A stretch of 43,771 nucleotides of DNA from Verrucomicrobiia bacterium (lineage in GTDB: Bacteria > Omnitrophota > Omnitrophia > Omnitrophales > Aquincolibacteriaceae): NCBI GenBank assembly GCA_035495615.1, contig DATJFP010000006.1, positions 1-43,771 on the forward strand, written 5' to 3'. The first letter of the stretch is position 1. Each line of letters begins with the position of its first letter. The notes under the pieces are model-generated. The model was not told the origin of the DNA, ran no database searches, and saw only the letters and a program-made list of their open reading frames with translations. Of this stretch, positions 3,001-31,904 are shown in pieces. A program made the translations under genes and the position numbers.

Positions 3001-6000
3001 GATGGCGGCGCGCGGCAATTACCATTTTGACGCCGTGTCGAAAACGCTGGCCCGGGTGTCGCAGCTCAAGCCCGCGAATCCGCCGCCGGCATGGGAAGCC
3101 GCGGCCCATCTCGTGGCCCGAGCGCAGATCATCCAGGACACGGAGATAGACGCCCAGGTCCGCGCCGCGCTGCTCTATGACGCGGACCTTGCCAAATCAT
3201 CCGTGAAAACAGACGCGGCCGCCAAAGAGCCGCATCTGTGGGCGCTTGCTCCGGGAAATGCCGCGCTGCTGGACCAGATCACGAATCCGGACCTCGAATA
3301 CTTGAGAAAGCCCGCGCTTCCGCCGGAAGACGCCGCCGTGCAAAGCGAGGTGGAAGCGCTTCTCGACGAGGAATTGACCAAGACTGAATTGCGTTCCCAG
3401 GAAGAAATAGACGCCTTCATTACCAAGGTGGAACAGGCGGCGGGCGATCCGGCCGCGGGCCGCCTGGCGCTGATGCGCGAACTCAACCGCCCCGAAAAAA
3501 CGCAGGGCGTGCTGAAGACAAAGGCCGAGGCCCTGAGTGTCGGCGTGATCGGCCGCATGACGCATATTTCGGAAGTTCTCGATTACGCGATGCTGGTCAT
3601 GAAAGACCTTTCGGTGCCGGTCCCGATGTTCAACTACCAGGCCCAGGCCGTGAAAAAGTTAAACGCTTTGCTCGCGGACGAAAACGGTCAGGGCGAATTG
3701 ACGCAGCTTCTCACGGAGCGCGCGGGAGCGGCGGATGCGCTCGGTTATATCCTGGGCGTCGTCAGCGAACCGATTTACGACGACAAAAATCCGGCGTATG
3801 AAAATTTCCGCAATGCCGTCCGAAGGCTCGCTTTATCCGAAGATCCGAGAGAGGTGCGCGCGGCTTTCCATTTGATCGGAAGGATTTGGGGCGACATGGC
3901 GCGCTCCCTGAAGGTGCCCGGCCTCGATAACTCGGTGCGCGGGCCCATGGAGCAGTTTGTAAAAAACCTCGAGGCTTTTACCCAGGATCTATTTACCCGC
4001 CGTTATTATCAGTTCGGCTTTGATGCGTCCCGGCATTCCGGCATGAAGCTCATCGCGGGCATGCCGATTCAGGATCCTCTCAAGGTGGTCATTCCCGCCG
4101 TGGCGGCGGCGTTTGCCGACCGCTTGAGGGACGGCAAAACAGAGGAAGGCGAACGGCCCGCGGCCGTGCGCCATCTCCGGGACTTGTCCTACATGGTCGC
4201 GGGCAGCATGGACCAGAGCGACGTGATCATCTCGATAAACCATCCCAAGAAGAAATCGATCATCGATCAGGTCGTCGACGACTGGGACGGCATGAAGGCG
4301 CTTTACGAACAGGCCCAGCAGCGCTGGAAGGCCGCGAAGGCGCCGCGCCCCGTAAAGGTCCTGACCGACCAGGAACTTCAAGACGAGGTTTTTCAGCAGG
4401 ATCTCTTTGCCGCGATGGATCAGCTTTTCAACCGGTTCGCCCAGGGCGAGGTGCCCGGCGCCGCGTCTTTCGGAGCGGCCGACAGAATGTATGAAATTCC
4501 GAGCGTCGATCTGGTTAAAAAGATCGTCAAGGCCCGCCCCGCATGGCTCACCCTGCCGGCGGAATTCGCCGACGCCGACATGACTAAAGCCAACGTGGAC
4601 ACGGCCGTCGAAAAGGCCTACCTGCAGCGCGATTTCATGCACGGCATCCATTCTTTCAACAGCGCGCTTGGGCAGTTCGCGATGCGCCTCACGAATCCCG
4701 CGGCGCGCTACCGCTTCAATGTCCTGTTGAAGGTCAAAAATCCCGTGACCGGCGCGGAAGAAATGCATCGCGCGGACATGGCCGAGATTTCCGACAGCGG
4801 CGAGATCCAGAAATTGATCTTCTTCGAGCCGGGGCCTCTCGACATTTCTTTTATTCCCGATTACGAAGGCGAATACCGCCGGAGGATCGGCGGGCACCTG
4901 GCCGTGCTCTCGCAGGCGGGGCTGAAAAAAGAAGTCAAAACGGAATTCTATTCCTTGAAACCCGACACGCACGATTATGAAACACAGAAATTTCCCGGCC
5001 TGGAAAACAAGGACATCCGCTTCTTCACCCTCGACAGTCTCCTTGACCGGCTCACGGCGTCCGACCTGCTGGACGCGCGCGGCAAGCAGGTGATGGCGTC
5101 TTACCGTGAATTTCTCAAGAAAATCACGGCGGAACCGGTCCGGGAACAGCCCGTCGGTTACTACACCGCAGGCGTGACATTCCTGAAAGTGTATCGCGCC
5201 AATTTCGAGCATGCGACCGAAGCCGTGCTGGAGCGGATGAAAGGAAGGCCTGCGGGAGAGATCCAGCAGGAGGCGCTCACCCGCTACCGGCAGATGATCC
5301 AGGTCATGCAGGCGTTCGCAGGGCCGGCCATTCCGGCGTTCATGCAAAAACCGACCGGCAGCGGCGCGCAGAAAATCACGGATCATACGGCGCAGATCGT
5401 GGTTGACCTGAAAGGGCATGCGTACCAGGGCCGGGAAAGCAACGTCTACGATGCCTCGGCCAAAACCCACCGCAACCAGTACAAGGAAAAAATCGCGATC
5501 CAGGCGCCGCAGCAGTTTTACCGTACGGTGGTGCTCGGAGTGGATAAATGGCGTCCCGAATTAAGGGCCGGGAAAGCGGCGACGGCGTCGTCCCTCGACG
5601 ATGCCGCGGCGGCCCGCGCGTTTTGGAATCTTGCCCACATGCCGCGTCCCTTGCTCGGGGCCGGCGAGAAAGCGAAACTCGAAGGGCTTGTCAAAAAAGT
5701 ACTGGCCGCGACGGCGGCGGAAAGCCCGGCCGCGGAAGAAACCCTCAAGCAGTTTTTGGCGGGCAGGAACGGAGGCATCCGCGCGGATGAAGCGCAGCGG
5801 ATTCTCATCGAGGCCACGCTGCGGCAGACATATCCGGCGAACAATGTTCACCGTTTGTTCCAGATCCTCGTGGATGCAAGAACTCAGACCCCCGCCGCAA
5901 CACCCGGAACGGTTCTGACGCGGCTGCTGACATCGCTGGACGCTTCAGAGCGCGACGCGCAAACCGCCGCGGGCCAGAATTTCTTCCGTACTTCCGTCCT

Positions 6001-9000
6001 GCTTCATACCGCCACCCAGACGGGAAGGGACTTGAATGCAATTTTTATGTCCGGGGGAGCCGTTCAGACGATCGCGGCCTATTTCCCCTTCGAGGCCCTC
6101 GTGTCGCGGATTGCGGGAGGGCAATTTCTTGAAAAGCACGGTTTCGTAGGAATCGAGGAACGCCTCAAAAATTTGCCCGAGCTTCCGGCGGAGCTTCAGG
6201 ATTTCAAGCCCCTGGTCCTTCACCTCCGGACCGGCGGCCCCCTGGATGCCCGCCTGCAAACACTCTATGAAGGCCTGCGCACCAATCATGGCTTGCGGCT
6301 GCGCGTCCTGGATGAGCTTGCTTCGAAAATGACATTCGCGCCCGACGCGGAAATGCCGGCTTTGTCGGCAGCCGCCATGAAAGTCATGGCGGAGTTCAAA
6401 ACGCCGCAGGAATACCTTGATTTCGCCCAATGGAGCCTTGGCGCATGGCTGTCCAGCCGCAGCCGGTTTTCCTATGACGCCGTCGAACCGGTTTTTCTCA
6501 AGCTTAACGAGGTCTTGAAGACGCCGGAGGGTAAAGCGGAATTCGGCGCCGCGCTGGCCGGAAAAAGTATCTGGAATCAAATTCTGTGGCCGCATTGGAT
6601 CCACGCTTCCCTCGACCTGTCGCGTCCCGAGTATGCCGCTATCAAAGAGGCTTTGATTGAAAATGCCGCCGGCACGGATCCCCGCACAGCCTTCGCGGCG
6701 CTGCATCTTCTCATCCTCTATTTTGATTTCAACGACCTTTATGAAAAAGAAAAAAATAAAACCGTCATTTCACGCGACGGCCAAAGGGCCGTCCTGCGCG
6801 ATCTTGTGAAGAAATGGATCCAGACCCGGGCCTGGAAATTCGACGACATGGCGTTTTTCTTCGAAATTATCGCAAGCCAGCTCGATTGGAGCCTGGGTTA
6901 CATGGCGTATGTCTTTGAAGAGGAATTCCGCGCGGCAGCCGCGGCGGAGACGGACGCCTCGGCCGTCCGGCGGATCGCGGCGGACCTCGACCGGCTGGTG
7001 CGGTGGCTGGGATTGCAGAACGAAATCTTTTCCGAAACCGGCGGTAAAACCATCAGAATCAATCAGGCCGACATCATTCTCAAGACAGACGCGGCAGGCG
7101 AGACGCGTTTCGGACGCATCGTGAAAGAAAGGGAAGAAGAGATCTCGCGGAACCGTTTCAGGCGCGACTATGACCTCGATTCGCCGGCCCTGCAGAAAGA
7201 TTTCTATGCCTTGACCGGCGCCGCGATCCGGGAAATCGAAAAAACAAACGGCGCGCATTTCATGGCGCAGTTTCCTCTTTTTGAGACGGTTTTGGAAACG
7301 CTGAAGCGCCCGGAGATCAGCGGATTTCATCCGGTCTTCAAGGACGCGGATTTTTCCGCGGCCGGCCCGCTGCGCGGCCGTCTCGAAGCCCAATACGAGC
7401 GGCACAAATACCGGCATGCCGTGGAAACTTCTTACCGCGCCCTGGGCCAGCTGGCCATGCGCCTGACTTATCCCAAGCGGGACATCCGGTTCGACTATCC
7501 TCTGGAATTCAAAACGCCTTCCGGCGAATCGTATTCGGTCACCGCGGACGCAGTGATCATCGAAAACGGCAAGATCGACGCAATCCAGTTTTTCCCGCGG
7601 GGACCCGGCCCGCTGGACTTCGAAGGCGATCCGCAGGCGGTTTACGTGGAACGGGCGCTCGGCCAGATCGCGCATGCTTACAATCTCGCCAAAAATCCGG
7701 ATCTTCTCGTCAATGCCGCCATTCCGCTGAACGACAATGCGGCCGTGCGCCTGCACTTCCTCGGTCCGGACATGCGGTACTTTGAAAACAATACGATCGT
7801 TTATCCGAAGGGGAATGCGCCAAGCGCACCGGAAGAATACGCGTCGAGTTTCGATCTGGAAGCGCTGCTCCAGACCCGGTTCCTGAAATCAGCCGACAAT
7901 CCCATCCCCCGCCGCGACGTCATGACGACGGAACTGCTGAGCGCTTACCGTTTCCTCAAAGCCGCGGCGGATCAAATTCCGGCGGACAGGTCTGCGCTCG
8001 AAGCCGCGACGACCAGGCTCGCGCTCGCAGGCGACATTTTCAAATACACGCGCATCCTGACGGACGCCAACCTCCGAATCTTGAACAGCGGGACGTCCGG
8101 GATCTCGTACGACAAGGGAATGGAATTCACGTTCAACGCCCTGACCCAGGACGTGCACAAGCTTGTCGTGGACAATGACCAGGAGTTTGGACGTTTTGCG
8201 CTGGCCAATGTGACGGGCGTGCTTTTACCGCAAGTCGCCGGCGCCAAAGGCGCCATCCACATGCCGGGCGTGGATCAAGTCTATTCGGCCTCGCAGCAGC
8301 GCTACGTGCCAGCCCCCGCGGCTTTCGGCGGGCGCGATCTCGGACGTTTTTACGGCGACATGCTCCAGACCATGAAGGCCGTGCCCGTCTCTTCCATCCC
8401 GGGAGACCGCTATTATCCCGTGACGGCCAACCAATTCGCCATCGACATGGCCAACAGTTTCGAAAAGATCCAGGTCTGGCAGATGTCCGACGAGGAGAGA
8501 AGCATTTTACGCGACTACATCAGAGCCCTGCGTGCGGCCAAGGACGACGCCGAGCGTGCCGCTTACGCCGCGGACCTGAAGCGTTTCGTTCTTTCGCGCA
8601 ACACCGTGCCGCGCGGCCTCCAGCTTCAGGTTTACCTCATGGAGGCGGAAGCGACGGCCGACACCGCGCGGAAAGGGGACGCGTACAAAACGAAGGTCGA
8701 GAATGCGGTAATGAAAGATGTCCTGGGGCCGTCTGAATACAAGCCGGAGATGTTCGTGAAGCTCCAGGCGCTCGAGCAGGCCATCGCCAGCACGGATCCA
8801 TCCGTCAGCGAGCATGACCGGACCGTCTTCCTTTATCTTTCGCAAATGACCTACGACGAACTCGACCGGCTTTTCACGCAGCCCGGACAGACTTTGAAAG
8901 ATCTGTGGGGACAGTGGCTGAAGAATTCCACGCTGGACAGGCACAGCCCGAAGGCGCCCATTCTGAATCCCGGCCATGAACGCGCGGAATTCAATCAGAT

Positions 9001-12000
9001 CTTCAACATGGTGGTCGACTGGATCGCGGACGAGAAGGAAGAAAGGATCGGACAGAATCCCTGGCGCGCGAGGCTTACGGAACCGGGCGTGCGCCGCGAC
9101 GCCGTTGCCGCGTTGAGCACCTTGGCGGAAGCGGCGGCTGCGGGCGGGAATCCGGGCGCCGGAACTTTTCAGATCAACACCATGTCCCCGGTGACTTCGG
9201 CCAACCCGCAAGTGCCGCAGCGGTACAAGGATGTCCTGGGAAAAGTTCTGGCCGGCGTGAACAGCGTGGGAGAGATCGCGGATCTCGCCGCGATGTGGAA
9301 AGACGAATTGCTCGCTCAGGCCACGCCGGTGCTCGTGCAGAAACTGGACAGCCTTCTCGCCGCGGATCGTGACGACGCCGTGGAACAGCGCCGCGCCTTT
9401 GCCGCATCGCTCACCCGGCGCAGCTGGATGCCCGGCGTCTGGGACTCGGTTTTTGCGCGGCTCATCCGCTGGCAATTTTTCGATCCGGACGACAAGCGTT
9501 TTTCGAATATCCGCGACACGCTCCTGGAGCTCGCTGCGAGCGACGACGCCCTTGTCGCCTATCAGGCTTTTGCCGTGGCCGGCGATTTCCTGAAATACAC
9601 CACCGCGAATCCCCAGAACCTCGCCGACAGGATCGATGCCCAGAAATTCCTCGCGCAAATGGAAGCTGCCAGAATGAAAAAGTTCGGATCGGACAGCGCC
9701 CGTTACGGCTACATGCTCAGCCTGAATACGCTTTTGAACCGCTATCCGGAGCGTATCGTGCTCGAGCAAAGGCTCAAGGACCTGGCCGATCTCGCGGAAT
9801 CCCTTTTCACGGCCGACCTGGCTTCGCAGCAAGCCGGCCCGGAGCGCGCCGCCGAGCTGAACGACTGGATTTACATCATGGCTTATAACTCGAGGATGGA
9901 TCCCAAGACCGTGCTGCTGACGGACAACGGCGGACAAACGCGTTACGACCGCGCGGCGGAAAAGAAAATCGAACCGCGCGGTGCGGAAGAAGCGGCCGAA
10001 ACCGCCCCGCACGCGGAACTGAGAACCAAGGTCGAACAGGTGCCGCTCGACGAGCGGAGGGCGCTGTTCCAATCCGGCTGGCGCGTCATGCTCGAGCGCG
10101 CGAAGGCCGTGCCCGCGCTTGCGGCAAACATCCCGCAGACGGCGCGCGTGTATGCCGCGGTGTTCCAGTCCCTGCAAAAAGCCAAAGTGGTCGGAGAGCC
10201 GGATTTCAACGCGGCGATCGACGATCTCTCGCGCATCTCGGGCCTTCCCAAAGAATCGCTGCTGGGCACGCCGGCCGCGGCGGTTCCTAAAAAGAGTCTG
10301 ATGGACCTGATCCAGGCGCAGGAAGCAAGCCGCTTGTGGAATCTCACGGGCGCGGAAGAGCTGGAACTCACGGAAAGGATCGAGGATTTTGCGTCGGCCC
10401 CGGACGATCGCCAGGACGCGGCATGGGGAGACATCCAATCTTACGTGCTCGATTCGAACACCGTGAACCGGCTCATACGGTTGTCTTCATTGGTTCATTA
10501 CCGGATGGTGTCCGGAAATTTCCCCGCGGCGCGCATCCACAGCGCCATCGGACGCATGGACAGGCTGCGCACCAAGGTCGGCGACAAGCAGCTCGCTGAA
10601 GCGGCAAAGCGGGCATCTGCCGGCGAAGCCGAAAACGACGATCTCACGATCACCTTCAAAATGGGCAACTTGCAAAACATCGCGGAAGCCATGTCCGATC
10701 CCGCGACCGGTATTTTTGAAACGGTCTATTATATCCGGATGCTCGACAGTTTTTTTTACGCCACGGGCACGGATAAGATGGCCCCCCAAAACATCGGGAT
10801 CACTCTTGCCGGCCTGGTGGAGAAAGGGCTGGACAGCAATACCAAAGCGGCATGGTTTGCGCTTTACAACGCCGACGCGGTGAAGGCCAAGGCCTCGACG
10901 GTCGCGCGCGTGAAGCCGGTGGTCACCGAGGCGCTGCGTCAGCGCAAAATGACGACCGCCTTGAAAACGATCCTGGAATCCGACGAGGAATCCCGCTTCG
11001 CGGCCGTCGCGGAGCTTTCCAAAGCCATTTGGCCGCCCGGGTTGGCCGCTCCGGGCACGGCGGCACGCCCGGGAGAGCCTGTTTTTGCCGAGGCGCTCAC
11101 GAGCATGAAGAAGGTAAGCGAAATCCTCCGCCTTGTACGCACCATCGACGAGCTGAGCGGAAGAGGGCTGTCTTACAATCCCACGCCCGTGCTGAAAGGG
11201 CTCGACGGCATGCTCGCTACCGAAGAGGGCGTGCGCGAATTCGAAGAACTTATCCGCGGGAACAACTGGGTGGACCTGCAGATGATCGGCCCGCTGAATT
11301 TCGCCCTCAATACACCGATCAGCGCGTACCCGCATTTCACGGCCGCGGTGCGCCGGCTTGCGACAAGCGGCGAACCCGCGCTCGTCATCGCGGCATTCAA
11401 TATCATCATCAATTACCGGGAGCGCATCGCCTCCATGGAAAGGGCCGCCGGAGGTTCCGTGCCGGCCTTTGTCGTCACCATGCGCCAGGCCATGGACGCT
11501 TTCGCGCGCGACGTGTTCATGTCCCTGGTGCGCGAGTATGGATTCAGGGCGGAAATCTACCAGCCGCTTCTGTCCGATTTTTACGCGCAGCTGGTCAGGA
11601 ATTTTCCAGACTTCGAAGACTGGATCCGGGACGCGGCCGCGGATGTCTTCCGCAAAGGACTGGAAACGTCCGACCCCGTGAATTCCGATTACGGCAGATT
11701 CGTCCGCACCATGGTCTCCGTCGCGGCGGCCAACGGACAGACAAGCGACCGCTTCCTGGGCGTTTCTCAGGGAGAAAATATTTTTGAGAGGATTCTGAAG
11801 GAGACGGCGCCCGGCACGGCCGCGGCATGGCGCGGGCGGTATGAAGAAATCCGCCTGGCGGAAAGAAAAAGGCTGGAAGACCCGCAGATGCAGAAAGACC
11901 TTTTTGCGATCGTGGGGCGCGCGGTGAGCCATTACGAAAAAATGCGTTCTCATTTTCCCGCGCGGTTCGAGGACGTGCTCCCGCAGCTCATCGAGCCGCG

Positions 12001-15000
12001 TTCGTACTCCTTTCATCCGGATCTCGCGGATCTCCAGGTCGCACCGGACAGCCTGCTTCGGGAACAGTTTTATCTTCAGTTCCTCCGCCACCAATACCTG
12101 AACCGCCTTCAGGGCGCGTACAGCAGCACGGCGCAGGCCGTGATGCGTCTCATCGGCCATGGGGCCGGCGTGACTTCCGATTATCTGATGAGGCTCAAGG
12201 ATCCGTCGGGCGATGCGGCCAAAACTTACACGCTCAAGGCGGACGCGGCCGGGCGCACGCCGGGCGGCGTTCACAGCCTGTATTTCACGCCCATCGGCTA
12301 CACCGCGTTTTCATTCCTAGGCCAGGAAGAAGCCAAACAGAAATACCGCCGGGAAACCGAAGCGCTGCTCACCAACATCGCGCGCCTTTACAAGACGCCC
12401 GGCATTTCCAAAGACGGCGTCGATTTCGGGAAGACCGCGGTCTTTTACGTCCTGCCGCTCGGCAGCGACAGGCACGAAGGCGAGGGCATGGCGAACATGC
12501 TGCCGGAAATCCAAACGCCGACGCTGCTTTTCAGCCTGCGTGAAATGGTGGAAAAATTCAACCGTGAAGACAACCGCAAGCTTTGGCAGAGCACCATGCC
12601 CGCGCATGAGGCCGCGCTGGAAAAAGTTTATGCCGCTTTGCCGCCGGGAACCCAGGATCATTATGGGCTGGCCCTTGAAATTGCCCAGAACGTGCTGCCG
12701 TTCCTGCGCACGGTCAACAACGGCGAAGGAAACGCGGCTCAACTGGAAGAAGTGAACGAGCGCCTGGACCTCGTCCGTCAGGCCGCGGACGTGATGCGCC
12801 TTTCGCGCGAACTGAGCCTGGCGCTGGAGCTGCCGCAGTCCCGCCAGATGCAGCAAACGCCCACGGCCGGGGGACAGACCGCGATCGAAGATCTCATCCG
12901 GAGCAACCTGGTAAATCTGAACGGCCTCGTCCAGGAAATCCTGCTTCCTCTGGCCGATGCCGGCACGGCCAAGCCCGCGGCCGCGATCCGCCAGAAGATC
13001 GGCCGCATGCAGCAGGACCTGCGCGACCTGCAGAACCGCCTGGATGCCCAGTTCGGCACGCAGCTTGGAAGTTATTATCAATTCTATCCCGCGTCGATGC
13101 ATGCCTATTTCGATCCCGCGCAGGATAAATATGTGGACGACGACGCCCGCACTTTTGCGCTCGAAACGCAGCCGGATTATCACAAGGCCGCTCTCGACAA
13201 GATCGTGCGCGATTCCATGGCAGTCCCGGCCCCTGGGCCTTCCGCCAAACCGGAGCTGCGCATGAACGTGGTGGACGCGGCTTTCGTGGGGCCCGCTTAT
13301 GCCGTGACCGCGCTCAACCGCTCGGCCGACCAGACGCTTTACCATCTGACACCGGGCGAGAAAAAGAACATCGAAGACGGCGTGGCGGCGGTCTACGCGG
13401 CGGGGGACGCGGGAGTCCGGGCACGCAGGGCCAAGGCGCTCAGCAATTATGTTTATCTCGGCGAAAACGTGGAAAGCAAGAGGACGTGGCTCGCCACCGC
13501 ATGGAGAAGCGTTCCGATGCGGGGAGATTACAGCGCGGAGCAGCTGTCGGCCGCGCGTCCTTTCATCGGAGGCATCCTGCAGGCGCGCGAAGGCGGGCAG
13601 CCGGGCCTGGCGGGTATTTTGACGGGACTTCAAGTCATTCAGGAAGCGCTGGATCAGGGCGGGCTCACGGAAACGGAAAAAATCATCCTGGGCCACATGA
13701 TGACCTATGAAATGACGTCGCTTCTCGCTCCCTCCATGCAGGACGGCAAAATAATCTTTCCCGAAATCCGGAATAAAAAGATCAGCTATTTTCTTTCCCT
13801 GGCACGCGAACATTTCCTGGTAGAGAAAGCCAATCCGCCTCCGGCCAGGCCCGAAGAACAGAGCCCGGACCGTAAACAGATTTTCAGGCTGGTGAGCCAG
13901 CTGGTTCAGAACAAGAACCTCGACGAAGGCGGCCGCAAACTCGCGTCCGACGAACGGGACGCGATGACCCGGACCTTGAAAGATTTCGCGGAGCAGTCCC
14001 AGGACCATCGTTACATGATCCTGGCGGCCATGGAAGGATTCAAAGACAGCGGCGGCACCGATTTTTTCACGCGCGCGCAGCCCGTTTTCGCGGCGGTGGC
14101 TTCCACCATGAATACGCCCGACGAAATCCTGATCTGGGGCGCGCATCTGTTTTTCCTCCGGATCAGCGACCCGGTGCGGCACGCGGCCATGCCCGTCGTC
14201 GAACGCCTGGATGCTCTTCTGGCCGACCCGGAGCAGGCCGCGAAGTTCAACACGATCCTGCGCGACAGTGTGTGGGCGCGCATTGTCTGGGGAGCGCTTT
14301 TCATGGGCAGGGAAGACCAGGTGGTGCGGCTCGGCAACCTCCGCAAGCTGATCTTCGAAAATCTCAAGTCCAAGGACAATATCCTGCTCGACCGGACCCT
14401 GTCGCTCATCGCCTTTCTTTTGTCGCAGGCCCAGGATAACAAGAAAAAGACGAAGCTTCGGGTTTACGTGCGGGAAATCGTCCAGGAGATGGTCAAGGCA
14501 CACGGCACGGACATCGACAGCATTGCCGGCGTCATCGCCATCAATTACGCGGACAACGTGACTTGGAACCTTTTCCGCGATACGCTCGCGGAAGAATTCC
14601 GCAAAGCCGCGGCCTCGGGCGCCGTTCCCGATTATAAGAAAGCCGACCGCTGGATGCGGGCCCTGATCGCCGAGCACGGCAATCGCACGTCCGACGTTGC
14701 CGCCGAAATCGCCAAGGCCCTGGACCTTGATTCTAGCGGCCGTTCGATTTTCCAGCGCATCGTGGAAGACGCGGCCCGTCAAGCGCCGGCCGGAGAAAAG
14801 GCGCCGAAAAAGAAGAGCGCGGATTTCGATTTGAACGCTCAAGCCGTGCAGCAGGACCTTTTCATGATGGTGCGCAGCGTAGTCCGGCTTTTCGAAAAGG
14901 AAAACAACCGTTTCCCCGATTTCAGCGAAGTCCTCCAGAAGCTTCGCGATAACCGCGACGCGATCGACGGCTATCCCCCCACGGAAAACGCGGACCTGAA

Positions 15001-18000
15001 TTCCGCGGACAGCGATTTTGTCCGGCAGTTCGAACTCCAATACGAGCGCCTCCGCTGGGAAAGGCGCCTTGACCATGTCCAGCTCATGGCCGGACAGCTG
15101 GCAACCGCCATCCAGGTCCTCCCGGAAGCCGACATGAAGTTCAATTACGCCGTGCGCATGAAAGTCGGCGACGGCTCCGCCGCGACCACGATTCTTATTC
15201 CCGTGGTTTATGTCGGGCCCGACGGCAGGATCAAGCAGATGGGCACGTATAACATGGGGCTGAAGGATTTTGCCTTTGAAAGCGATGCGGCCTCGGTGCA
15301 TGAAGAGGAACTCGATTCCCTGATTTTCCTGAGCTCGAGGCTGCAGAACCAGCACGGTCTCGTCGAGCCGGTGGCCTGGGACAATACGGAATTCAAAGTG
15401 GGCTTTTTCGGGCCGCGCAGCGAACAGGCCGTGGACGTCACCAAGGTGCCGGCGCCGCTCAAGACCAACATCACGTTTGCCCGCCACGAATTGAATGGGG
15501 AGATCGGCAAAAAACTGCAGCTGCATCTCATGGATATGTGGGAGAAGATTTCCACCGCGGACCTCGCGGCGGTGAAAAAATTCAACCGCCGGATGGAAGG
15601 GCTGGAACGGGCTTACTCGGCCATGCTCCAGGCCCGCCTCTACAGCCGGCTCCTATACCAAAAAGGGCAGACGGATACCGCCGGCCCGGCCATCACCGAC
15701 CAGCTTCTCGAGCGTTACATGGTCCCTCTTACCGAAGGCGCGGAGATGGACGCTCTTGACCGCGGCGTTTTGGAACCGGAAGAAGCGCGCCTTCGGGACC
15801 TTTTGCGCGCACAAAGCGATAATGCCTCCGCGCCGCTGCACGGTCTTTTGCCGGCCGATCCCGGAGGCTTCTTTTACGACGCCGCGGAAAAACGCTACCG
15901 CTCATTCGACGAAGCCGGAAAAATCGTGGATGAAGACCGGCACGAACTTCCGGTGCAGGTGCTGCGCGATACGGCCAAGGCCGAATTGCGCACGGCGGCG
16001 CCGGTTGATTACGAAGGCAGCCGGCAATTCGGCTACTGGAACGCCAACCGGCGCAAGACGCCGCATTGGAATCTCCAGGCGGAAGAAAAGCAGATCCTCG
16101 ACCTGATCGTCAAGCGGCTCGTAAGCTCTAAAACGGACGCGGAACGCCTGCGGCATCTCCAAAGCCTTTATCGTTACATCCCGATGCATGACGGCCGCGA
16201 AGACGGCCTGGGCCGGGAAATGGTGTCCTCCATCCCGCAGAACAAAAGGATCGCGCGCAACTTTTATGCTTACGCGGCACTCGCGCGCGAAATCTATCAG
16301 GGCGATTACACGGTCGAGCAGATCAAAGAAGCGGACAGCCTGCTGGCCATGTTCAAAAGCCACAGCAAACCGGCCTCGGAACCGGTGCCCCTCGATATTT
16401 CGCCGCTGGTCTTCCTGCAGAATTTTCAAATGGTCGAGCAGGCGCTGCGGGACCTGCCGGAAGACATGGGCACGATCACCTGGAAAAGCGGTCTGTCGGT
16501 CATGTACCGGTCCTATCACGCAAACAAGCGCGAGGACGCGGCCGTCCTGCTCAGCGAAGCCAAAGAGCAGCTTACGCATCCGGACGTTTCGCGTTACGCG
16601 GGAAGCGTCGAAGAACGGCAAAAATGGCGGGACATCACCGCCGCGATCCAGAAGACCGATCTCGGACGAACCGTGGAGTACCGCCTTCAGCGGCTCCAGC
16701 CGCTTTTCAAAGACGCGTCCCAGAAGCAGGCGATCCTGGAAGGGCTTGCTTCGCTTACCGACGCGTGGAAGCAATATCCGGAAGCCGCGCGCTGGGCCAT
16801 TTTCGAAATACTCAGCCGGGACCTGCGCGGCAAAACCTCGAATTTCGAAAATGCCGCGCTGGAAGGCTACAAGACCGCAATCGCTTTCCTCGCCGAGCGC
16901 GCGGACAGCGTCGATGAAATTTATCGTTATGCCGAATGGATGGCGGCCGCCTGGCCGACGAAGACGTTCGCGCTTCCTGCGTCTTACTATGCTCTCGGGC
17001 CTCTGCTGGATCGTCTGGAAAATCTCCTGGCGGCCGAAGAGCCGGCGGGCGGGACCCAGCACCGCGACGCTTTCCTGCGGCTTTTGGGATCCCGCATGAC
17101 GTCCGCCCAGACGTGGGCTACGCTTCTCGGCAGCCATGCCGGCAAGACGGTCCTCGAGTATCCCACGCTGCGGAAAATCATCACGGAAGCCGCCGCAAGC
17201 GACAAGGGAGGCGTGGCCGCGCAGGCCTTTGCTTTGGTCCAATCCCGTTTCATCAATGAGTCCGCGGCCGCGGGAAAAAGGCCGATTGCCGAGGCGCTTG
17301 TTCCCGTCATGCTCGAAAAGGTGCTGGAGAAGTACGGTCTCGAGACGGAAAAATATTATTACCTGCTGCATTTGAACTATGTCGCGTTTCCCGACCCGAA
17401 AAAACTGCTTCCCGCCGCCCTGGAAAAAGAATTCCGCAAAAGATGGGACGCCGGCGAAACGCCCGATCCCCAAAAAGTGGAGCGCGTGCTGCGCGTCCTG
17501 GGCGTGCTGTTCCCGACGCAGACGGACGTAGAAGCGGAAATCAAGGAGATGCTCGGAACCGATGCCAAAGGCAAGAGCCGGTTCCAGAGAATTGCAGAAG
17601 CGCATGCTGGTGCGGCGCCGGTCTCCAGCCTTCAGTGGGACCTCCAGGCCATCGTGCGGACGGCTTCTGAGGACTTGGAAAAAGCCGAGAAAAAACGTCC
17701 CGAATTCGACGACGTGGCCGCGCTTCTTCAGCTCGAGCCGGAACGCTGGAACCGCCATCCTCAGCTGCGGGAAGAGTCCCTGACCGAAGGTTCCGGCCTG
17801 TATCAGCGCATCCAAGCCGCGTGGGAAGAACTGGAGAGGCAAAGGCTTCTCGAACGCTCCTTCCGCAGGCTGGGCCAGATCGTGCTGCTCATGGCCGAGC
17901 CGGACGGCAATTGGGGCTTTGACGTCGACGCCGAATGGCGCGAAGGGCTTGCGCCGGGCGAAGTGCCGCCGCATTATCAAATAGACGCCGTACAGATGGA

Positions 18001-21000
18001 CCCCACGACGCACGCCATTGCCAAGGTCGGGCATTTTCCGGCGGGATTCATTCCGTACCGCGAAGACGCCGAGAGGCGGTTCGTGGAAGAAACGCTCGGG
18101 ACTTTCGAACTCATGGGCAAATTGAGATCCGAAAAAGCCCTGACGACCCAAGTTCTGGCCACGCTGCTCTTTTTGAACCCGCGCATTGAGGACGTCAAGG
18201 CCACAGTCCTGGGTTCGAAATTCGATGAGCTCGATACCGCCGCCTATATTGCCCAAAACGTACGCCAGCCCATGATCAAGCATTTGGCTGTGCCGCTGCA
18301 GCAGGTCTATGCGGTGCTGCGCGAACAGGCCACGACGCGCGGCCAAGGCAATCTCACGCTCGACCAGCTCAAGGTCCTCGACGAAGCGCTCGGGCTTGCG
18401 CGCCTTTTCCTGAATGCGCACGTGCGCGAACTCTTCATCTACCAGACTCCGAATGCGAAAAGAACGAATGCCATTGCTGCGGAATTCGAGGTGGTTCTCA
18501 AAAGGATGGTGCTTGCGGCGGCGACGGGCGTCAATCCCGACGCGGACGCCACCCGGGACGGCTTTGCCAGCTCGAAGGAAAACGTGGAGCTCCTCAAACA
18601 GCAGTTGCTGCCGGCCCTTCGCGATACCTACGGCGGCCCGGAAGCGCTGGACACTTATCTCGACCTGAGGGCGGACAAATATGTGCCTTCGTCCCATAGG
18701 CCCGTGCCGCTCACGGATATTTCCAAAGCGCCGCGGCCGCAGACCTACGAAGCTTACAGCGAGGCCTTTAAGTTTTACGCGCGGGCGGGAGTAAAATATT
18801 GGAGCCTTTCGGGAGAAGAAAAAGCCCAGATCCTTTCACTCGTGCAGGCCCTGCTGTCCGCCGCGAACGACGCGGACCGTTCGAAGGCGGTTGCCGACCT
18901 GCGGTTTTACGTTTCCTTGAGCAACTCGCTCCCCAGAAAACATTTCGCACTGATCACGCTGCGTACGGAGGTCCAGCGCCGCGATTACGATTTCGAGGCG
19001 ATCCAGAAAGCCCAGGGCGAGCTCGCCAAGGCCTTTCCGGATGATGCGAATAAAACCATCGAAGCCATTCTCTACGAAGTCAGCGTGCTCCTGCAGGCGG
19101 GCCGGGACCCATCGCTTTCCAGCCAGGAAAGGCTCCTGCTGCAGGCCAAAGCGGATTTTCACATGACCGTCGCCAAGAACGCGGAGAAAACCGCGGGAAG
19201 AGAAGCCGCCTTCCAGGAGTGGCTCGATAAACTGGATACCTCCATTCCTCTGGCCTACTACGGGAATGCGACCGTGGACGTCAATCAGCTCACGACTCTT
19301 CCCGGACTCGAACCGCTTTTCAAAAAAGCGCTCGCCGAAGGGCCGCAAGCCCTGCAGCCTTTCCTCCAGGAATCCTATGCGAACCGCATGGCGGCGATTC
19401 TCATGACGCTCGGCGCGCCGCCGGAAGTCCAGCAGCGGTTTGCCAGCGCGGGTCTGATTCAAGCTTCGCTTCAATCATTGAAATCCGCGAAAGAAGTTTT
19501 TGAGGCCTTCCAGTGGGTCATGACGCTTCAGCGCATGGGACGTCTTCAGTTCACCCCGCAAAATGCGGGCCTTTACAACCAGATCATGCAAACGCTTGTC
19601 AAAGGGCTGAACGAGGCGCTAAAAAAACCTTCGGAGGCGGAGGAGTTCCGGAAACTGATGATTTCAAGGGCCCACACGCATATTTTGATCATGTCACTCA
19701 TCGAGTCCCAGACCCGGATGATCTTCACCGACGGCGGAGATCAATATGCGCCGATCAAGGATTTTTTCCTCGAAAGCGCCCGGAGCAGCGACCCGCGCGT
19801 CGCGGTCAAGGCTTTTGCCGCGATTCACCGGATCCTGGACAACTCGCGGCTCCTTCTGAGCCCGCGTTCGCCGATGCCGATTCCTCCGAAAGACAGGCCG
19901 AAGCTGGAAGAGATCATCCGCAGCCTCGAAGACTTCCTGCTCCTCATGTCGGCCGAAGTCTTCACCGCCTATGGGCCGGATTCGAGCCAGTATCACGCGC
20001 TTTTTTCAGAATTCGTATCGCTTCTGCCGCAGAATTTCCAAGGGCTGGTCTCGCTGGCCGTCCAAATCGCGCTTAAGAAGGACGCCTCTCAATATGCCCG
20101 TTTCTTCAGCGCGCTGGCGGCCCTGAAAGGGCTGAAGGCGGCAGACCGTGACGCGATTCTCGGGGTCAGAGGCGCAAACGAAACCTTTTTCCATTATGCC
20201 GTGACGCGCACCGAATTGCGCGGCGCCGAGCCCCAAGCCCCGCGGCCGGCCGCGTCCGCGACGTTGGACCAGGTGCTGGAACGCGCCGTGGCTTATCTGC
20301 TCCAGGAACGCGTCCCGTCTTCGATTTTCCGCGCGGAACTTCGCGACCTTGTGGCCGCGCGCGGCAACGAAGCCCTGGACGTGCTGGCCCGCCTCGCGGG
20401 AGCGGTCGAAACCGAAGCGTTCGCCCAGGAAGTTTTGTCCGCCCAGCTGCCGGCCTGGCGCGACCCGCGGATCATCCGCGCCATGCAGCGCATGACCGAA
20501 AGCCTCCGCAATCGCGGCCTTGGATTTTCCAGCCAGGCGTCCGACGTGGTGTTCGTGGTGCACGAGCTGCCGTCCTTGGACCTCATGCTCAGCATTCTGG
20601 AATCGCTGCCTGCCTTGAACATCCTTGTCGTCTGGACGCCGGCGGAAGGTTTCGACGGCCTGGACGCGGAGCGCGTGCGCGAGGTCGAGGCCCGGGCCAA
20701 ACTTTTGGAAGACGAAGTGCACGACAATCTCGGCATGGACGTGAACGGGCGGGAAAAAAGGTTGCAGGTGCGTGTCCCAAAAACTCTGGCCCGCGCGGAA
20801 GACGTTTTGAAGACCGCGGACCGCACCCTCTACGATCAGGGCGGCACGGACCGCCGGACCGGTTCTACGGACGCCATCAAAGGCCGTGTGGTCTACATTT
20901 ATCCCGAGAGCCTGCCCAGCCAGGCGCAATACGAAGAAGCCATGGGCACCGCCAAGACCGTGCGCTATTCGCTGGACAGCGGAGACCGTAATCTTTTCGG

Positions 21001-23013: not shown

Positions 23014-23019
23014 AAGCCC

Positions 23020-24180: not shown

Positions 24181-24186
24181 ACCCTG

Positions 24187-25438: not shown

Positions 25439-25444
25439 GCCGCA

Positions 25445-25473
25445 TTAGACAAGCCCGCCCGAATCCCTATAAT
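25445..25473 (+). promoter_or_regulatory. Sigma-70-like promoter before the MFS gene
   Basis: TTAGAC (25445-25450), a 17-bp spacer and a consensus TATAAT (25468-25473) lie 45 bp upstream of the MFS start. This is the best-spaced promoter match in the window. Confidence 0.6.
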
Positions 25474-25518
25474 GGAGCGTCCTTTCTTCCACCGTCTGTC
25501 ATTCCGCCCGGAGAGGCG

Positions 25519-26712: not shown

Positions 26713-26763
26713 GCTTCGAGCGTTTTCCCCGATGTCACACGCTTTCCGGGGCAGGATTTTTCC

Positions 26764-26797
26764 TTGACATCAGACAAAATCTGAATAAGATTCTGTC
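26764..26797 (+). promoter_or_regulatory. Promoter overlapped by a near-perfect dyad operator
   Basis: A consensus TTGACA (26764-26769) is followed after 16 bp by TAAGAT (26786-26791). A dyad with 10-bp arms (26773-26782 and 26788-26797, one mismatch, 5-bp centre) covers the spacer and the -10 box, the usual place for a repressor or MerR-type activator site. A 10-bp sequence from the left arm and centre (26778-26787) recurs directly at 26810-26819 in the leader. The adjacent genes suggest a metal-responsive regulator, by inference only. Confidence 0.5.
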
Positions 26798-26854
26798 CTA
26801 TTAGTCATGAATCTGAATAGTGCCGTTCGCGGCGAATCCCTCAAGGAGCAAGAA

Positions 26855-27601
26855 ATGAAAGTGTCCCGTTTTCTTAAAGGTCTCACCGCAACCGCTGTTT
26901 TCATGGTCGGAGTTTTGAGCGCCGCCGAGGCCCATACCCGCTACTATACTTTTACCGAACAATACCGCACGATCCCGCAGAACCAGTTTGAAATCGAACA
27001 GTGGACCAAGCTCGACGTTCCCAACCGCCACGCTACGAATGAAAACAAGTGGAAATACCAGACCGAGCTCGAGTACGGCATCACGGACCATTGGACGATC
27101 GCGCATTACGAATTCTGGGAAACCCAGAACGTGATCGGCAACGACGACGCCACCGGTTATGGCGGTTTCAAATTTGAAACCAAATACCGCATCGGCGAAA
27201 AAGGCAAGTACTGGGTCGATCCGTTGGTTTATCTCGAATGGGAAACCGAGCCGGGAGAAAACAATCCCAACACGATCGAAGGCAAGATCGTCCTCTCCAA
27301 AGATCTCGGCGATCTGAACGTGACCTACAACCAGATCCTGGAATCGCAGCTTGGCGAAGACGGCCGCACCGAGCCCGAGTTTGCGTTTGCCGCGAGCTAC
27401 GCGGTGCCCGGCGGCTTCCGCCCGGGCGTGGAATTCACCGGCAATTATTGGGAACCCGGAACGCGCCGCAATGAGCTTGCGCTTGGGCCGTCCCTGGCCT
27501 GGGAAGGCAAGTACTTCTGGCTCGCAGGCAGCGTGGTTTTCGGAATCAATCATGCCGCGGACGATGTCCAGGCCAACGTGGTGGTGGGAGTTCCTCTCTG
27601 A
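26855..27601 (+). CDS. Exported beta-rich, probable outer-membrane protein
   Basis: A 248-residue protein with a clear signal peptide ('MKVSRFLKGLTATAVFMVGV', cleavage likely after 'SAAEA', about residue 26). The mature part is full of alternating aromatic/polar strands ('YYTFTEQYRTIPQNQFEIEQ', 'YQTELEYGITDHWTIAHYE', 'GGFKFETKYRIGE'), typical of outer-membrane barrels of the general DUF6662/MetA-pathway-of-phenol type; exact family is a guess. I chose the ATG at 26855 because AAGGAG lies at 26843-26848 and the signal peptide begins there; an upstream in-frame ATG at 26807 has no ribosome site. The stop TGA shares its last base with the next ATG, so the two genes are translationally coupled. 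The pair may handle metal ions at the envelope. Confidence 0.72.
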   Translation: MKVSRFLKGLTATAVFMVGVLSAAEAHTRYYTFTEQYRTIPQNQFEIEQWTKLDVPNRHATNENKWKYQTELEYGITDHWTIAHYEFWETQNVIGNDDATGYGGFKFETKYRIGEKGKYWVDPLVYLEWETEPGENNPNTIEGKIVLSKDLGDLNVTYNQILESQLGEDGRTEPEFAFAASYAVPGGFRPGVEFTGNYWEPGTRRNELALGPSLAWEGKYFWLAGSVVFGINHAADDVQANVVVGVPL

Positions 27602-27876
27602 TGAAATCGCTGAGGCGCTTTTCTCGTTTTCTTTCCGCGGCCGTGATCGCGGGCGCGTTTTTCGCCGCGGCGCCGCTGCAGGCCGCGGCCTCGAAGCCGG
27701 CCCTTTTTCACAAAGGCATGGATTGCCCGGTCATGCCCGGGGAAAAGGTGAAGGAAAAATTTTACGCCGACTACAAAGGCCAGAGGATTTACCTCTGCTG
27801 CCGCAGCTGCGTCCGCAGCTTCAAGCGTAACCCGGAAAAGTATCTCGCCCGAATGGCTGCTGCGCAGCACTCGTAA
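27601..27876 (+). CDS. Small exported YHS/TRASH-like metal-binding protein
   Basis: The 91-residue product has a signal peptide ending near 'PLQAAA' (about residue 30). The mature part reads like a YHS/TRASH domain: 'DCPVMPGEKVKEKFYADYKG' followed by 'RIYLCCRSCVRSFKRNPEKY', with cysteines in C-P-V-M and C-C-x-x-C arrangement suited to copper or another soft metal. Such periplasmic domains are found beside metal exporters and sensors. It overlaps the stop of the barrel-like protein by one base (TGATG) and so is made with it. Metal identity is not determined by the sequence. Confidence 0.75.
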   Translation: MKSLRRFSRFLSAAVIAGAFFAAAPLQAAASKPALFHKGMDCPVMPGEKVKEKFYADYKGQRIYLCCRSCVRSFKRNPEKYLARMAAAQHS

Positions 27877-27934
27877 GCCGTTTTTCTCCTCATCCTGAGC
27901 GCATCCCAAACCCCCAGGACCGCCGCCTAGCATT

Positions 27935-28040
27935 CTTGATCACCTGCAATCAAGCCCGCATTCGCGCCTTCCTTAATTTGAGAAAAGCCGCCCCTGCGGG
28001 TACCTTTTATCAAACCCGGCGCAACGGCCAAACGGGTTTG
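27935..28040 (+). other. Structured leader before the large secreted protein
   Basis: Three hairpins can be drawn in the gap between 27876 and the start at 28050: 27935-27940/27949-27954 (6 bp); a compound stem 27983-27991/27996-28008 with a TTTT at 28005-28008; and a perfect 8-bp stem 28011-28018/28033-28040. The arrangement is compatible with a cis-regulatory RNA or attenuator, but I recognise no known riboswitch class. Confidence 0.25.
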
Positions 28041-28049
28041 CGTGACCGG

Positions 28050-31000
28050 ATGACTTTCTTCTCCTACAACCGTCGCCGCGCTCCTCGACAAACGGCCCTT
28101 TTCTTGCTATTTACCTTCGGGCTTTTGCAAAGTCCGCCTCCGGTCCGCGCGTTTTCCGCCGCGCCTTCTTCTTTCTCGATCCCCATGGAACTCGGCACCG
28201 TGGAAGAATCCGTCCAGCGCCCCGGCGCCAAAACGATTTTGTATCTCCAGGACGCGCACGACTGCCTCGAAGCCCAGGAAAATATCGCGAAGATCATCGG
28301 CGGCCTGGTGGAAAAGGGGGGTGTCCGCACGGTTTTCGAAGAAGGCTACGAAGGCCCCGTTCCCACGGATGCTTATTTCCAAAGCATCGCAGCGCCGCTC
28401 AAACGGCAGGTTTCTTACTTCCTCATGGACAGGCTGCGCCTCAGCGCCGCGGAATACGCGCATGTCAACCGATCGAGCGATTTCAATCTCATTGGAGCGG
28501 ACAATGCCCGTCTTCACGCGGAAAACATCGCCTGGTACCGGAAAAACGCCGCGCTCCAGAGCGGCGTGCGCGAGGATCTCTCGGCGCTCCAGGAACAGGT
28601 CCGGAAATTGATGAAGAAATTTTATCCGGAAGAAGCGGTGCTGTGGGTGCGTATGCGGGACCGTTTTCACGCCGGCGAGATGGAGCTGCTGGAGTACCTC
28701 CAAAGCACGGACGCCCTTTTTGCGAAACAATTTCCCCGCGAGGAAATGGCCGCGCGCTATCCGCGCCTTTCGCTCGTTCTGGAAGGGAAAACGCCTTCTC
28801 CGGAAGCCCTGCGTAAACTCGAAGATATCGAGGCTCGGGACTTTTTCACGGAAATCGAAGCGTGGGAAACGGCCATCGCCGGAAATGTTTTGACCGGCGC
28901 GGAACAAAAACAGATTTTCGAATACCATCGCGATCTGGACCTGCTGGCGCGCCTCTCGGAAGTCAAAGTGTCGCCGCTGGAATTCGAGGCCTCGAGTGCG
29001 GCGCTCGAAAGGCTGCGGACGCAGGCGTTCGCGGATTTCACGGCGCGCCTTCTCGGCCAATCGGTCGTGCTTTCCAGCAAATGGGAAGGCCTGGTTACCG
29101 CCGCTTCCGCGTTTTACCGGACCGCGGAGAAGCGCGATGAAGCGCTGCGCGGCAGGCTCGAAGCTTTCAAGCGCGGTCCCGCGCAGTCGGCCGTGATTGT
29201 CTTCGGCGGCTTCCACAAAAACAACATCAAGCGCCTCCTCGAAGAACTCGGCTTTTCTTACCAGGTCGTCGCGCCGAAGATTTCCGGCTCCGACGCCGTC
29301 CATGAAAATTATTACCGGCAGCTGATGACGTCGCAGGAAAGCCCGTATGATTTCGAAAAGGCCGCCACGGCCGTGCCGCCAGAGCGCATGATCTCGATTT
29401 TCAGTCCCGCCCAATTCCAGACCGTCCAGCTTCCCGCGATCAAGGCCGCCCTGGCCTTGGAAGCTTCGAAATCCGAATTGCGTGCGGACGAAACTCCCGA
29501 AGCAATCGAGCAGACGAACCGGGGCGTCATTCTCGAAGCGCGCGGGATGCTGAGAGCCATGCAGGACTACAGCGATGAGCATTTCCCCCGGCTCAACAGG
29601 CTTTCCGGGCGAGAACGCGACGACAACGAATGGCGTTTTGTTCTGTACGGGCATCTGTATGTTTTTCTGGAGATTTTTTCGAGATACCGCTTCGTTGGAA
29701 GGGACGGCAAACGGTACAAGGTCAGCGGGGGCGTGATCACGCGCTCGCTTTCCGGCGACGAAGAGCTGACTGTCGTGGTGAATTTAAGCTATGAAGGCCA
29801 GCATGCGGCGCAGTTGAAATTCGAAATTTCCATGGCGGGCGGCTTCAGCGTGACACCGGCGCTGTTCGTCAAGCCGGAGCATGCGGCCAACGGCCTGGGC
29901 GCGCAGGCCTACGCGCTTTTGCGGGAAATTACTCCCGCGGGGATGCTTATGGAGCTGAACGGAGACATCCAGAATATCCCGACGCTCGTGAAGCTCGCCG
30001 CCGCTCTGCCGCCGGAAGCGCGCGCTGAAGTGCAGCCGATCCTGGACAAATACCAGGCGCTCCTGGAAAAGGGGGCCGATACGGACAAGCAGCCCGAAAG
30101 AACGGGGCAAATGCAGGAGTCGGAAGCGCTGGCGAGAAATCTCGCCAAAGCCCTGCGCGCGGGACACGTACTTCCCGAAGAGATCGTTCGCTCGACGAAA
30201 CTCGCGCAGGCGCGGCTGAAATATTTTTCGCCGGACCTCGAGTTGAAGAAAATCGAATCCCCATACAGCCTGCCCGGCTACGTCAGCCGTTACACCGCGC
30301 CGCAGGACACGCCCATGCCGGACACCGCGATTTCCCGCGGAAAAATCCTGGCGGTCAAAGAAAAATATTTCAAGAGCGAACTGCGCATGGTGGCCGGCAT
30401 GAAGGCGCTCATCAAAGAGCAGCGCATGCTCAATCCCGGCTTTAAAGATGAGTCGCTGACCAAGTTCAATCTGACCGGTATTTCGGCCTGGACGAGTCAT
30501 TTTCAGTTCGAAGAATCCGCGCGCCGCATGCTCGAGGCCGATATGGAAAAACGGATCGCGCAAAAAATCGCGCAGGGCGACCGGTCCATGACGTTTGCCT
30601 CATTCGGCCTGGGCCTTCCCATGATCGAACCCCAGGACGTCCTGAAAAGCTTCTACACGGTGCTGAAAAGCCCGCGTTTTGCCGCGGCCGGCGAAAAGCC
30701 GTCGGGTTGGAAGGTGCGCTATTACGGTTTCGATTCGCAGGCGCTTTTGATTTATGCCAAAAGGACTTTTGACGAACTGGAAAGAGGGGAGAGACTGGCG
30801 GACATCGGCCTCGAAAAATCCGAGTTTGTGACGGGCATGCTCAAGGCGAAAGCGGTGAAGATCAACCTGTATGATTATGACCAGATGCGGCCCCTCGTGC
30901 GCCATGCAATGGGAAAGAGGAAAGCCGATTATCTTTTCCAGCGCAACGTCAGCTATGCCAACAGCCATGCCGCTTATTTGAAGTCACCGTCGCCGGACGA

Positions 31001-31904
31001 CTTGCACTATCTGGCGACGGCCTATCTTTCCACGCGCAATCTTCTTCTCGCCGCGGCCAAACCCGGCACGCGGTATATCCTCGAAGCCACAGAGTCTTCG
31101 ACGATTTTTGGATTTATGGGACTCACTCCCATGGACGCCAAAGACCTTCTGCCGGACTGGAAGCCGGAAAAAGAAGAGTCGTCGCGCAGTTACGGGATGT
31201 ATTGGGTGGGGAATCCGGAAGCGGTCCTGCGCTCCGAGAAGAAGCGGACGGCGGCGCGCGATTTTTATGCCGCGATCCAGCGGGCTTCGGGACATTCTGA
31301 GCTCCGCTTCGATCCCGGCCTGGGAGATATCGACCGCGCCTTGAAACGTTTGAAAACGCCCGTGGCCGTCTATCTCGATTACCAAGACCTCTCGGACCGT
31401 TTCTGGGACCGGGATAGAAACGCATGGAACGCGCAGGGGCTGGAGATTTTCACGATGGCTTACCGGTATCACGAAAAAGTAAAGCTGGTGATTTACGGCG
31501 CGGACTTGGCCGATGCGCGCCTGAAGCCTTTCCGCGAATTGAGCCGGCGCTTCCGCAATGTGTGGATCCTGTCGCAGGGCGGACAGGCGGCTTTCGACGA
31601 GACGCGCGGGCTCCGGAGTTTCCAGAAGGCTGTCAGCGTCCATCTTTCGAAAGATAATGCGCGGGTCCGCGCGGAATTTCTCAAGCGGACCCAAAGCGAT
31701 CTTTATTTCTTCCGGTATGCTTCGGCGGACGCGGAGGCGGGACTTCTGGCCGCGGCGCTGCTTTGGACCCAATATGAAGAAGCTGGCCGCGTGCTGCCGG
31801 GAATCGGGCGGGATTCCCAGGGCTTTTTGACGATCGTCGACGACGCGCTCCGCGGCCTCGTGAGGGAATTCGAAGCGCGGCTTGTCGTGTCCATGGCGGC
31901 GTAA
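28050..31904 (+). CDS. Large secreted multidomain protein, TraB/ChaN-like N-terminus
   Basis: A 1,284-residue product starting at the ATG of 'MTFFSYNRRRAPRQTALFLL', a signal peptide with cleavage near 'VRAFSA' (about 33). The longer in-frame start at 27936 would bury this peptide, so I rejected it. Domain A (about 45-440) resembles TraB/Tiki/ChaN proteins: 'ILYLQDAHDCLEAQENIAKI', 'VFEEGYEG', 'LIGADNARLHAENIAWY' and, near its end, 'VIVFGGFHKNNIKRLLEELG'. The G-x-x-H and E-E-G features are those expected of that fold. Three K/H-S-E-L-R linkers (E at 29475, 30378, 31299) separate domain B (about 480-700, unknown), domain C (about 780-1075, faintly like a CheR-type methyltransferase but with a degenerate cofactor loop) and domain D (about 1085-1284, alpha/beta). 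The same linker type occurs in the giant protein at the start of the window. Probably acts in the periplasm or outside; activity is unknown. Confidence 0.78.
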   Translation: MTFFSYNRRRAPRQTALFLLFTFGLLQSPPPVRAFSAAPSSFSIPMELGTVEESVQRPGAKTILYLQDAHDCLEAQENIAKIIGGLVEKGGVRTVFEEGYEGPVPTDAYFQSIAAPLKRQVSYFLMDRLRLSAAEYAHVNRSSDFNLIGADNARLHAENIAWYRKNAALQSGVREDLSALQEQVRKLMKKFYPEEAVLWVRMRDRFHAGEMELLEYLQSTDALFAKQFPREEMAARYPRLSLVLEGKTPSPEALRKLEDIEARDFFTEIEAWETAIAGNVLTGAEQKQIFEYHRDLDLLARLSEVKVSPLEFEASSAALERLRTQAFADFTARLLGQSVVLSSKWEGLVTAASAFYRTAEKRDEALRGRLEAFKRGPAQSAVIVFGGFHKNNIKRLLEELGFSYQVVAPKISGSDAVHENYYRQLMTSQESPYDFEKAATAVPPERMISIFSPAQFQTVQLPAIKAALALEASKSELRADETPEAIEQTNRGVILEARGMLRAMQDYSDEHFPRLNRLSGRERDDNEWRFVLYGHLYVFLEIFSRYRFVGRDGKRYKVSGGVITRSLSGDEELTVVVNLSYEGQHAAQLKFEISMAGGFSVTPALFVKPEHAANGLGAQAYALLREITPAGMLMELNGDIQNIPTLVKLAAALPPEARAEVQPILDKYQALLEKGADTDKQPERTGQMQESEALARNLAKALRAGHVLPEEIVRSTKLAQARLKYFSPDLELKKIESPYSLPGYVSRYTAPQDTPMPDTAISRGKILAVKEKYFKSELRMVAGMKALIKEQRMLNPGFKDESLTKFNLTGISAWTSHFQFEESARRMLEADMEKRIAQKIAQGDRSMTFASFGLGLPMIEPQDVLKSFYTVLKSPRFAAAGEKPSGWKVRYYGFDSQALLIYAKRTFDELERGERLADIGLEKSEFVTGMLKAKAVKINLYDYDQMRPLVRHAMGKRKADYLFQRNVSYANSHAAYLKSPSPDDLHYLATAYLSTRNLLLAAAKPGTRYILEATESSTIFGFMGLTPMDAKDLLPDWKPEKEESSRSYGMYWVGNPEAVLRSEKKRTAARDFYAAIQRASGHSELRFDPGLGDIDRALKRLKTPVAVYLDYQDLSDRFWDRDRNAWNAQGLEIFTMAYRYHEKVKLVIYGADLADARLKPFRELSRRFRNVWILSQGGQAAFDETRGLRSFQKAVSVHLSKDNARVRAEFLKRTQSDLYFFRYASADAEAGLLAAALLWTQYEEAGRVLPGIGRDSQGFLTIVDDALRGLVREFEARLVVSMAA

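Follow-up and report, generated by a model that had tools for sequence, protein, structure and literature searches.

A species-typical R-x-E-x-R motif between the modules of giant Omnitrophota proteins, a candidate processing site of exported bacterial polyproteins

Giant open reading frames (ORFs) are known in the Omnitrophota, for example one of 39,678 amino acids (aa) in Velamenicoccus archaeovorus (Seymour et al., 2023, PMC10066038). Here, we compare these and other multi-module systems with two large proteins encoded in the window, the 43,771-nucleotide stretch of DNA that forms the start of contig C6 of an Omnitrophota genome (3.16 Mb, 106 contigs), which share a five-residue motif of the form R-x-E-x-R. 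The chains described here resemble the known giants in phylum, in very long ORFs, in export-type features and in a suspected predatory or symbiotic lifestyle, whereas few domains, poor conservation and coat or adhesin roles are reported there; the passages searched in it make no mention of a repeated border motif, a common head domain or processing. No report of such a motif, head or processing in Omnitrophota giants was found in open-access full texts (bioRxiv and most subscription papers were outside the search).

As in viral polyproteins, unrelated functional units stand in one chain, a short consensus is repeated between them and the chain holds a candidate protease. In contrast, the present chains are encoded on a bacterial chromosome, with many per genome and no viral genes, the proposed protease is N-terminal behind a signal, and cleavage is predicted from the sequence. 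Polyproteins at this scale are known from viruses and, as far as we found, the open-access literature describes none for bacteria. The release of MARTX toxins involves a cysteine protease domain and RTX repeats; no Pfam match to either was obtained in the modules scanned, which were not all of the modules. MARTX and other autoprocessing multi-effector proteins are also large exported chains with several effector-like modules, and TIKI-family domains occur in both systems (RRSP, PMC6254334); however, the TIKI-like domain is a fixed head here and cargo there. Polymorphic toxin systems are defined by a shared N-terminal trafficking part, a variable C-terminal toxin and an immunity gene; of this plan, the present chains show a shared head with variable cargo.

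We propose that a protease would recognise R-x-E-x-R, in this genome as [R/K/H]-[A/S/P]-E-[L/M]-R, and at this sequence divide exported bacterial polyproteins into separate enzymes. Each chain begins with a signal-like hydrophobic helix and an Ere/ChaN/TIKI-like hydrolase head, and then has unrelated ordinary modules, joined by Ala/Pro/Ser/Thr/Glu-rich linkers bearing the motif. That the motif marks a cut site is, in our judgement, probable. The features of the two window proteins are listed below.

2-21187, plus strand: giant ORF of 7,061 aa, N-terminus lost at the contig start, eight motif sites
542-556, plus strand: site KAEMR (Met variant), 7,061-aa ORF
3380-3394, plus strand: site KTELR, 7,061-aa ORF
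5552-5566, plus strand: site RPELR, 7,061-aa ORF
10010-10024, plus strand: site HAELR, 7,061-aa ORF
13247-13261, plus strand: site KPELR, 7,061-aa ORF, model confidence low here
15977-15991, plus strand: site KAELR, 7,061-aa ORF, model confidence low here
20207-20221, plus strand: site RTELR, 7,061-aa ORF
20330-20344, plus strand: site RAELR, 7,061-aa ORF, missed in the first-pass annotation
28050-31904, plus strand: second putative polyprotein ORF, head and three cargo modules, 1,284 aa from the ATG at 28050 (1,322 aa if started at the TTG at 27936)
28080-28127, plus strand: N-terminal hydrophobic helix preceded by RRR, signal-peptide-like by sequence; helix 11-26 in the model
28170-29348, plus strand: head domain of the second ORF, Ere/ChaN/TIKI-like
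28251, 28257, 28341, 29133 and 29214, plus strand: putative catalytic residues of the head, D68, H70, E98, R362 and H389, respectively
29469-29483, plus strand: site KSELR in the linker between head and module 2, disordered in the model (predicted local distance difference test, pLDDT, below 50)
30372-30386, plus strand: site KSELR at the border of modules 2 and 3
31293-31307, plus strand: site HSELR, second ORF

Together, the two proteins contain ten [KRH][STAPG]ELR sites and one EMR form. The pattern occurs seven times in the 7,061-aa ORF against a mean of 0.17 in Markov shuffles and three times in the second ORF against 0.06; for the looser [KRH]xELR the means are 0.47 and 0.19, and none of 2000 shuffles reached the observed count in any of these comparisons. 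ELR alone is not significant, with seven occurrences against a mean of 3.4 in the giant (count reached in 123 of 2000 shuffles) and three against 1.1 in the second ORF (224 of 2000). Thus, the informative part of the motif is the pair of residues before ELR. The first-pass annotation had argued that a few ELR tripeptides are expected by chance and a preceding basic residue is not, and the shuffles agree. All of the sites that it named were recovered, including the EMR form (the motif starts at 542, with E at 548), and RAELR at 20330 was added as an eighth site in the giant; lying in the helical-looking context SSIFRAELRDLVAARG, this one is possibly a chance match. The same annotation described the two proteins as unrelated. 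The shared motif stands, but the proteins are probably not unrelated in kind, since both appear to belong to a single class of polyproteins. Diverged tandem units of ~950 aa, 20-30% identical, make up the 7,061-aa ORF, and a low-confidence model shows them as mostly helical.

The proteome-scale search for enrichment that the annotation had suggested was made on a 1.0-Mb sample of the genome, with ORFs called by greedy length; the caller is rough and some small ORFs are spurious. ORFs of at least 1200 aa contain 107 sites, where 1.75 are expected from composition, and shorter ORFs contain 8 against 6.07. The consensus is [R50/K46/H11]-[A37/S32/P23/G8/T7]-E-L-R-[A/T/S], and 19 further sites are Met forms. 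Every ORF of at least 600 aa with an intact N-terminus and at least two sites begins with a head of ~400 aa after a hydrophobic helix. Among ORFs of at least 600 aa whose N-terminus is known, the nine with a head have 86 sites (3.3 expected), and the 102 without one have 7 (7.0 expected). Fifteen ORFs of at least 600 aa have a head or at least two sites, and they make up 18.7% of the called coding sequence. The largest ORF found, on the minus strand of contig C88 (L189-L192), encodes 23,959 aa with a head and 23 sites (2.9 expected); its intactness depends on the assembly. A scan of the genome contigs with the whole protein as query gave no match.

The sites lie between domains and almost never inside them. 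The 25 Pfam domains identified in eight long ORFs contain no site, where 9.7 are expected (P about 1e-4), and most of them are bracketed singly by sites. For example, a response regulator (523-616) is flanked by sites at 510 and 712, a histidine phosphatase (4113-4317) by sites at 4066 and 4411, a PfkB domain (636-917), which sites also part from a NUDIX domain, by sites at 508 and 942, and a PALP domain (2576-2870) by sites at 2493 and 2891. The PALP module gave nothing against the PDB at E 1e-10 (phmmer). The HATPase, methyltransferase, GT2 and FHA domains each occupy one site-to-site interval, and both glycosyltransferase matches of L105 fall within a single interval, as expected for parts of glycosyltransferases. 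In the 85 heads collected from several genomes, only one site occurs in 36,008 aa against 93 expected, and the first site follows a median of 64 aa past the head. Several unrelated complete functional units thus stand in one ORF as separate Pfam-matched modules, with the consensus repeated between them. Further modules of this genome are FHA, APH-type kinase, protein kinase, RNase III-like, DUF218, M23 and alpha-amylase, and a sigma-70 module matches RpoS with 79.7 bits. The latter (L010:3-728, minus strand) comprises RpoS-like regions 2 and 3, is truncated by the contig end and sits after a motif site in an ORF that begins with a signal-like helix.

Within the genome, paralogous modules mostly align from site to site over their full length, e.g. 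1-411 of 411 with 1-408 of 408; the exception is the tandem units of the 7,061-aa ORF, which align only partly. Of 94 homology-block starts, 30% fall no more than 60 aa downstream of a site in both partners, against 3.2% at random. In the second window protein, the block of aa 1126-1322, common to other genera, begins directly past HSELR at 31293. Some linkers, in L011 (C10) and L015 (C14), consist of tandem 20-aa repeats with a site at each repeat end, e.g. ASSEELLRSAGLKEVRPELR and ASSAEGVLGAGLKGARPELR. At 7 of 130 sites a membrane-helix-like segment follows directly, which could mean that the following module carries an anchor or signal of its own (e.g. aa 660, 1127 and 3054 of the C10 ORF, L011; aa 5399 of the C14 ORF, L015; aa 1058 of the C34 ORF, L055). 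Four polyproteins of the genome have a related module at their C-terminus (L012:8565-9326, L055:1459-2325, L055:7990-8895 and L010:7721-8584). As a general feature, a conserved C-terminal tail module was rejected, being found in only a few ORFs of this genome and hardly in relatives.

The motif recurs in relatives, and the residue at its fourth position varies with the species. A set of 92 head-bearing ORFs from other Omnitrophota genomes contains 529 sites (26.7 expected), most of them of the form R-S-E-[L,V,M,A,T,I]-R, and relatives in the same order have R-[SA]-E-[LVMAT]-R. Unsupervised searches recover the same signal: RSE is enriched as a tripeptide in the stretches of most genomes from other genera of the family, and R.E.R is the top gapped pattern in family f2 of the same order (37 against 5.4) and again in genomes G001 and G022. 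An apparent absence of the motif in G001, G007 and G022 proved to be an artefact of a narrow pattern, and the variants RSEKR, RAETR and RSEVR are present. The fourth residue is L in G018 (26 of 27 sites), V in G009 and G023, A in G019 and G063, and K or T in G001; the mutual information is 0.95, compared with at most 0.27 in 1000 shuffles. This is expected if one recogniser reads all of the sites of a genome. A start-codon origin of L, M or V at this position was ruled out, as this position often has CTC, CTT, GTC, Ala or Thr codons.

The AlphaFold model of the head has a pLDDT of 82.5, and the site-bearing linker behind it is disordered. In a Foldseek search with this model, the top five matches are Bcr135 and EreC (probabilities 0.97 to 0.69), with ChaN tenth (0.47). 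Five residues (D68, H70, E98, R362 and H389), with the signature D-x-H...E...R...GGxH, do not vary in 85 of 86 heads, the remaining head being partial, nor in another 17 from across the phylum, one of which is a standalone form of 437 aa. In the TIKI-family endopeptidase RRSP, E3900, H3902, E3930 and H4030 are essential, with R4001 (PMC6254334). The head shares with the TIKI, erythromycin esterase and ChaN families a putative H...E...H arrangement, a conserved basic residue and a 28-residue spacing from H to E (H3902-E3930 in RRSP, PMC6254334; H85-E113 in Bcr135; H70-E98 in the head); it differs in the giant cargo fused to it. We read the head as a probable TIKI/Ere-type hydrolase and, more tentatively, as a protease. 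A scan with two conserved peptides, which reaches close relatives only, found head relatives only in Omnitrophota/Omnitrophica records (76 loci). Standalone head ORFs of ~440-500 aa occur in other families of the phylum, e.g. L208:1706-3016, and are possibly the ancestral form.

Assigning the cutting of the motif to the head itself is tentative, and a number of observations count against it or against the wider proposal. The Foldseek matches are weak (best E 0.009, TM-scores ~0.2), no Pfam model of the TIKI/Ere/ChaN superfamily exceeds its cut-off (PF04187 reaches E = 0.041 in one of 21 members), Asp68 stands where RRSP has its first catalytic Glu, and the relatives of the fold include non-proteases, namely erythromycin esterases and haem-binding ChaN. 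Giants with a head but no motif occur in families f14 and f30, which lie outside the class (in L193-L195, L198-L201 and L203 neither R-x-E-x-R nor another obvious border motif was seen), the single ORFs looked at in f4 and f6, families of the same order, have the head and not the motif, and a giant of G005, from the same family, is nearly without sites. Head and motif are therefore separable, and their strict coupling across the phylum is ruled out by f14 and f30. Homology blocks end at sites less clearly than they start there, the structure model of a tandem unit of the 7,061-aa ORF is too poor for site placement, and it is not obvious what cytosolic-type cargo would do physiologically behind an export signal.

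The strongest rival shares the polyprotein and moves the enzyme: the sites would be cut in trans by a separate protease, in the periplasm or a target cell, and the head would be a hydrolase or binding domain acting, for example, in sorting or attachment. The motif-free giants, which imply a motif-independent role of the head, and the non-proteases among Ere/ChaN folds favour this reading. However, the head is present in every ORF of the genome sample with at least two sites and a known N-terminus, its putative catalytic residues never vary, and searches of the genome for caspase-like and clostripain-like proteases found neither, serine and other metalloproteases lying outside these searches; a search for C25 (gingipain) proteases gave no match even in control genomes and is uninformative. 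On this balance, we regard a trans-acting protease as rather unlikely. Next comes an uncut motif, that is, a short linear binding motif or structural spacer in a permanently intact giant, docked for instance by the head. A linker position and species-typical variation would fit any recogniser, protease or not, and surface coats or adhesins have been proposed for giant Omnitrophota ORFs (PMC10066038); yet the modules, among them a sigma factor, PfkB, NUDIX, a response regulator and a histidine kinase ATPase, are ordinary enzymes or regulators that gain nothing obvious by being joined, and several tandem sites per linker suit cutting better than spacing, which makes the uncut motif improbable.

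The codons show at which level the motif is kept. Codon bias is 0.00 bits at E and 0.02 bits at the last R, which is background usage, and the flanking DNA (45 bases on each side) has a mean information of ~0.02 bits; thus, the motif is maintained at the protein level. Moderate bias remains at the first R (0.27 bits) and at S (0.36 bits), where Arg favours CGC/CGT and Ser favours TCN, and this may reflect the copying of older sites. A DNA-level trace, such as a recombination junction, insertion site or dispersed repeat read in frame, would account for this residual bias (CGN, TCN) together with NTG at the fourth position, for linkers that are recent tandem copies (a 14-member cluster) and for the clear shuffling and duplication of modules at motif borders, but it is largely refuted by the codon and flank tests, by the 621 of 672 sites with independent flanks and by the drift of the fourth residue among L, V, M, A, T and I, and is very improbable. 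Of the two explanations offered in the first-pass annotation, the polyprotein processing site fits well (far above chance, between domains, with unrelated flanks and species-typical), and the recombination junction is disfavoured by the codons and DNA flanks.

Export of these chains, cleavage in their linkers and the bond that would be cut are predictions. If cytosolic-type enzymes are indeed exported, they may be delivered to another cell, which would agree with the predation or symbiosis proposed for the phylum (PMC10066038). In its fullest form, which we consider doubtful as a whole, the proposal holds that an order of uncultured bacteria would generally make and export sets of enzymes as self-processing polyproteins: a TIKI-like protease head would cut the chain at a species-tuned R-x-E-x-R, and the cargo set free, which includes kinases, a sigma factor and metabolic enzymes, might enter prey or host cells.

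Should the chains stay intact, what remains is a new linker motif of giant proteins. So far, each giant Omnitrophota ORF has been taken for one protein, be it an adhesin, a coat or a wall-degrading protein; with cleavage at a repeated five-residue code, these ORFs would instead be packages of many separate proteins, and the annotation of ~19% of the called coding capacity in the sampled 1.0 Mb would change. Bacteria would then share the polyprotein strategy known from viruses, and the function of the giants would become approachable module by module, with protein termini predicted at R-x-E-x-R.

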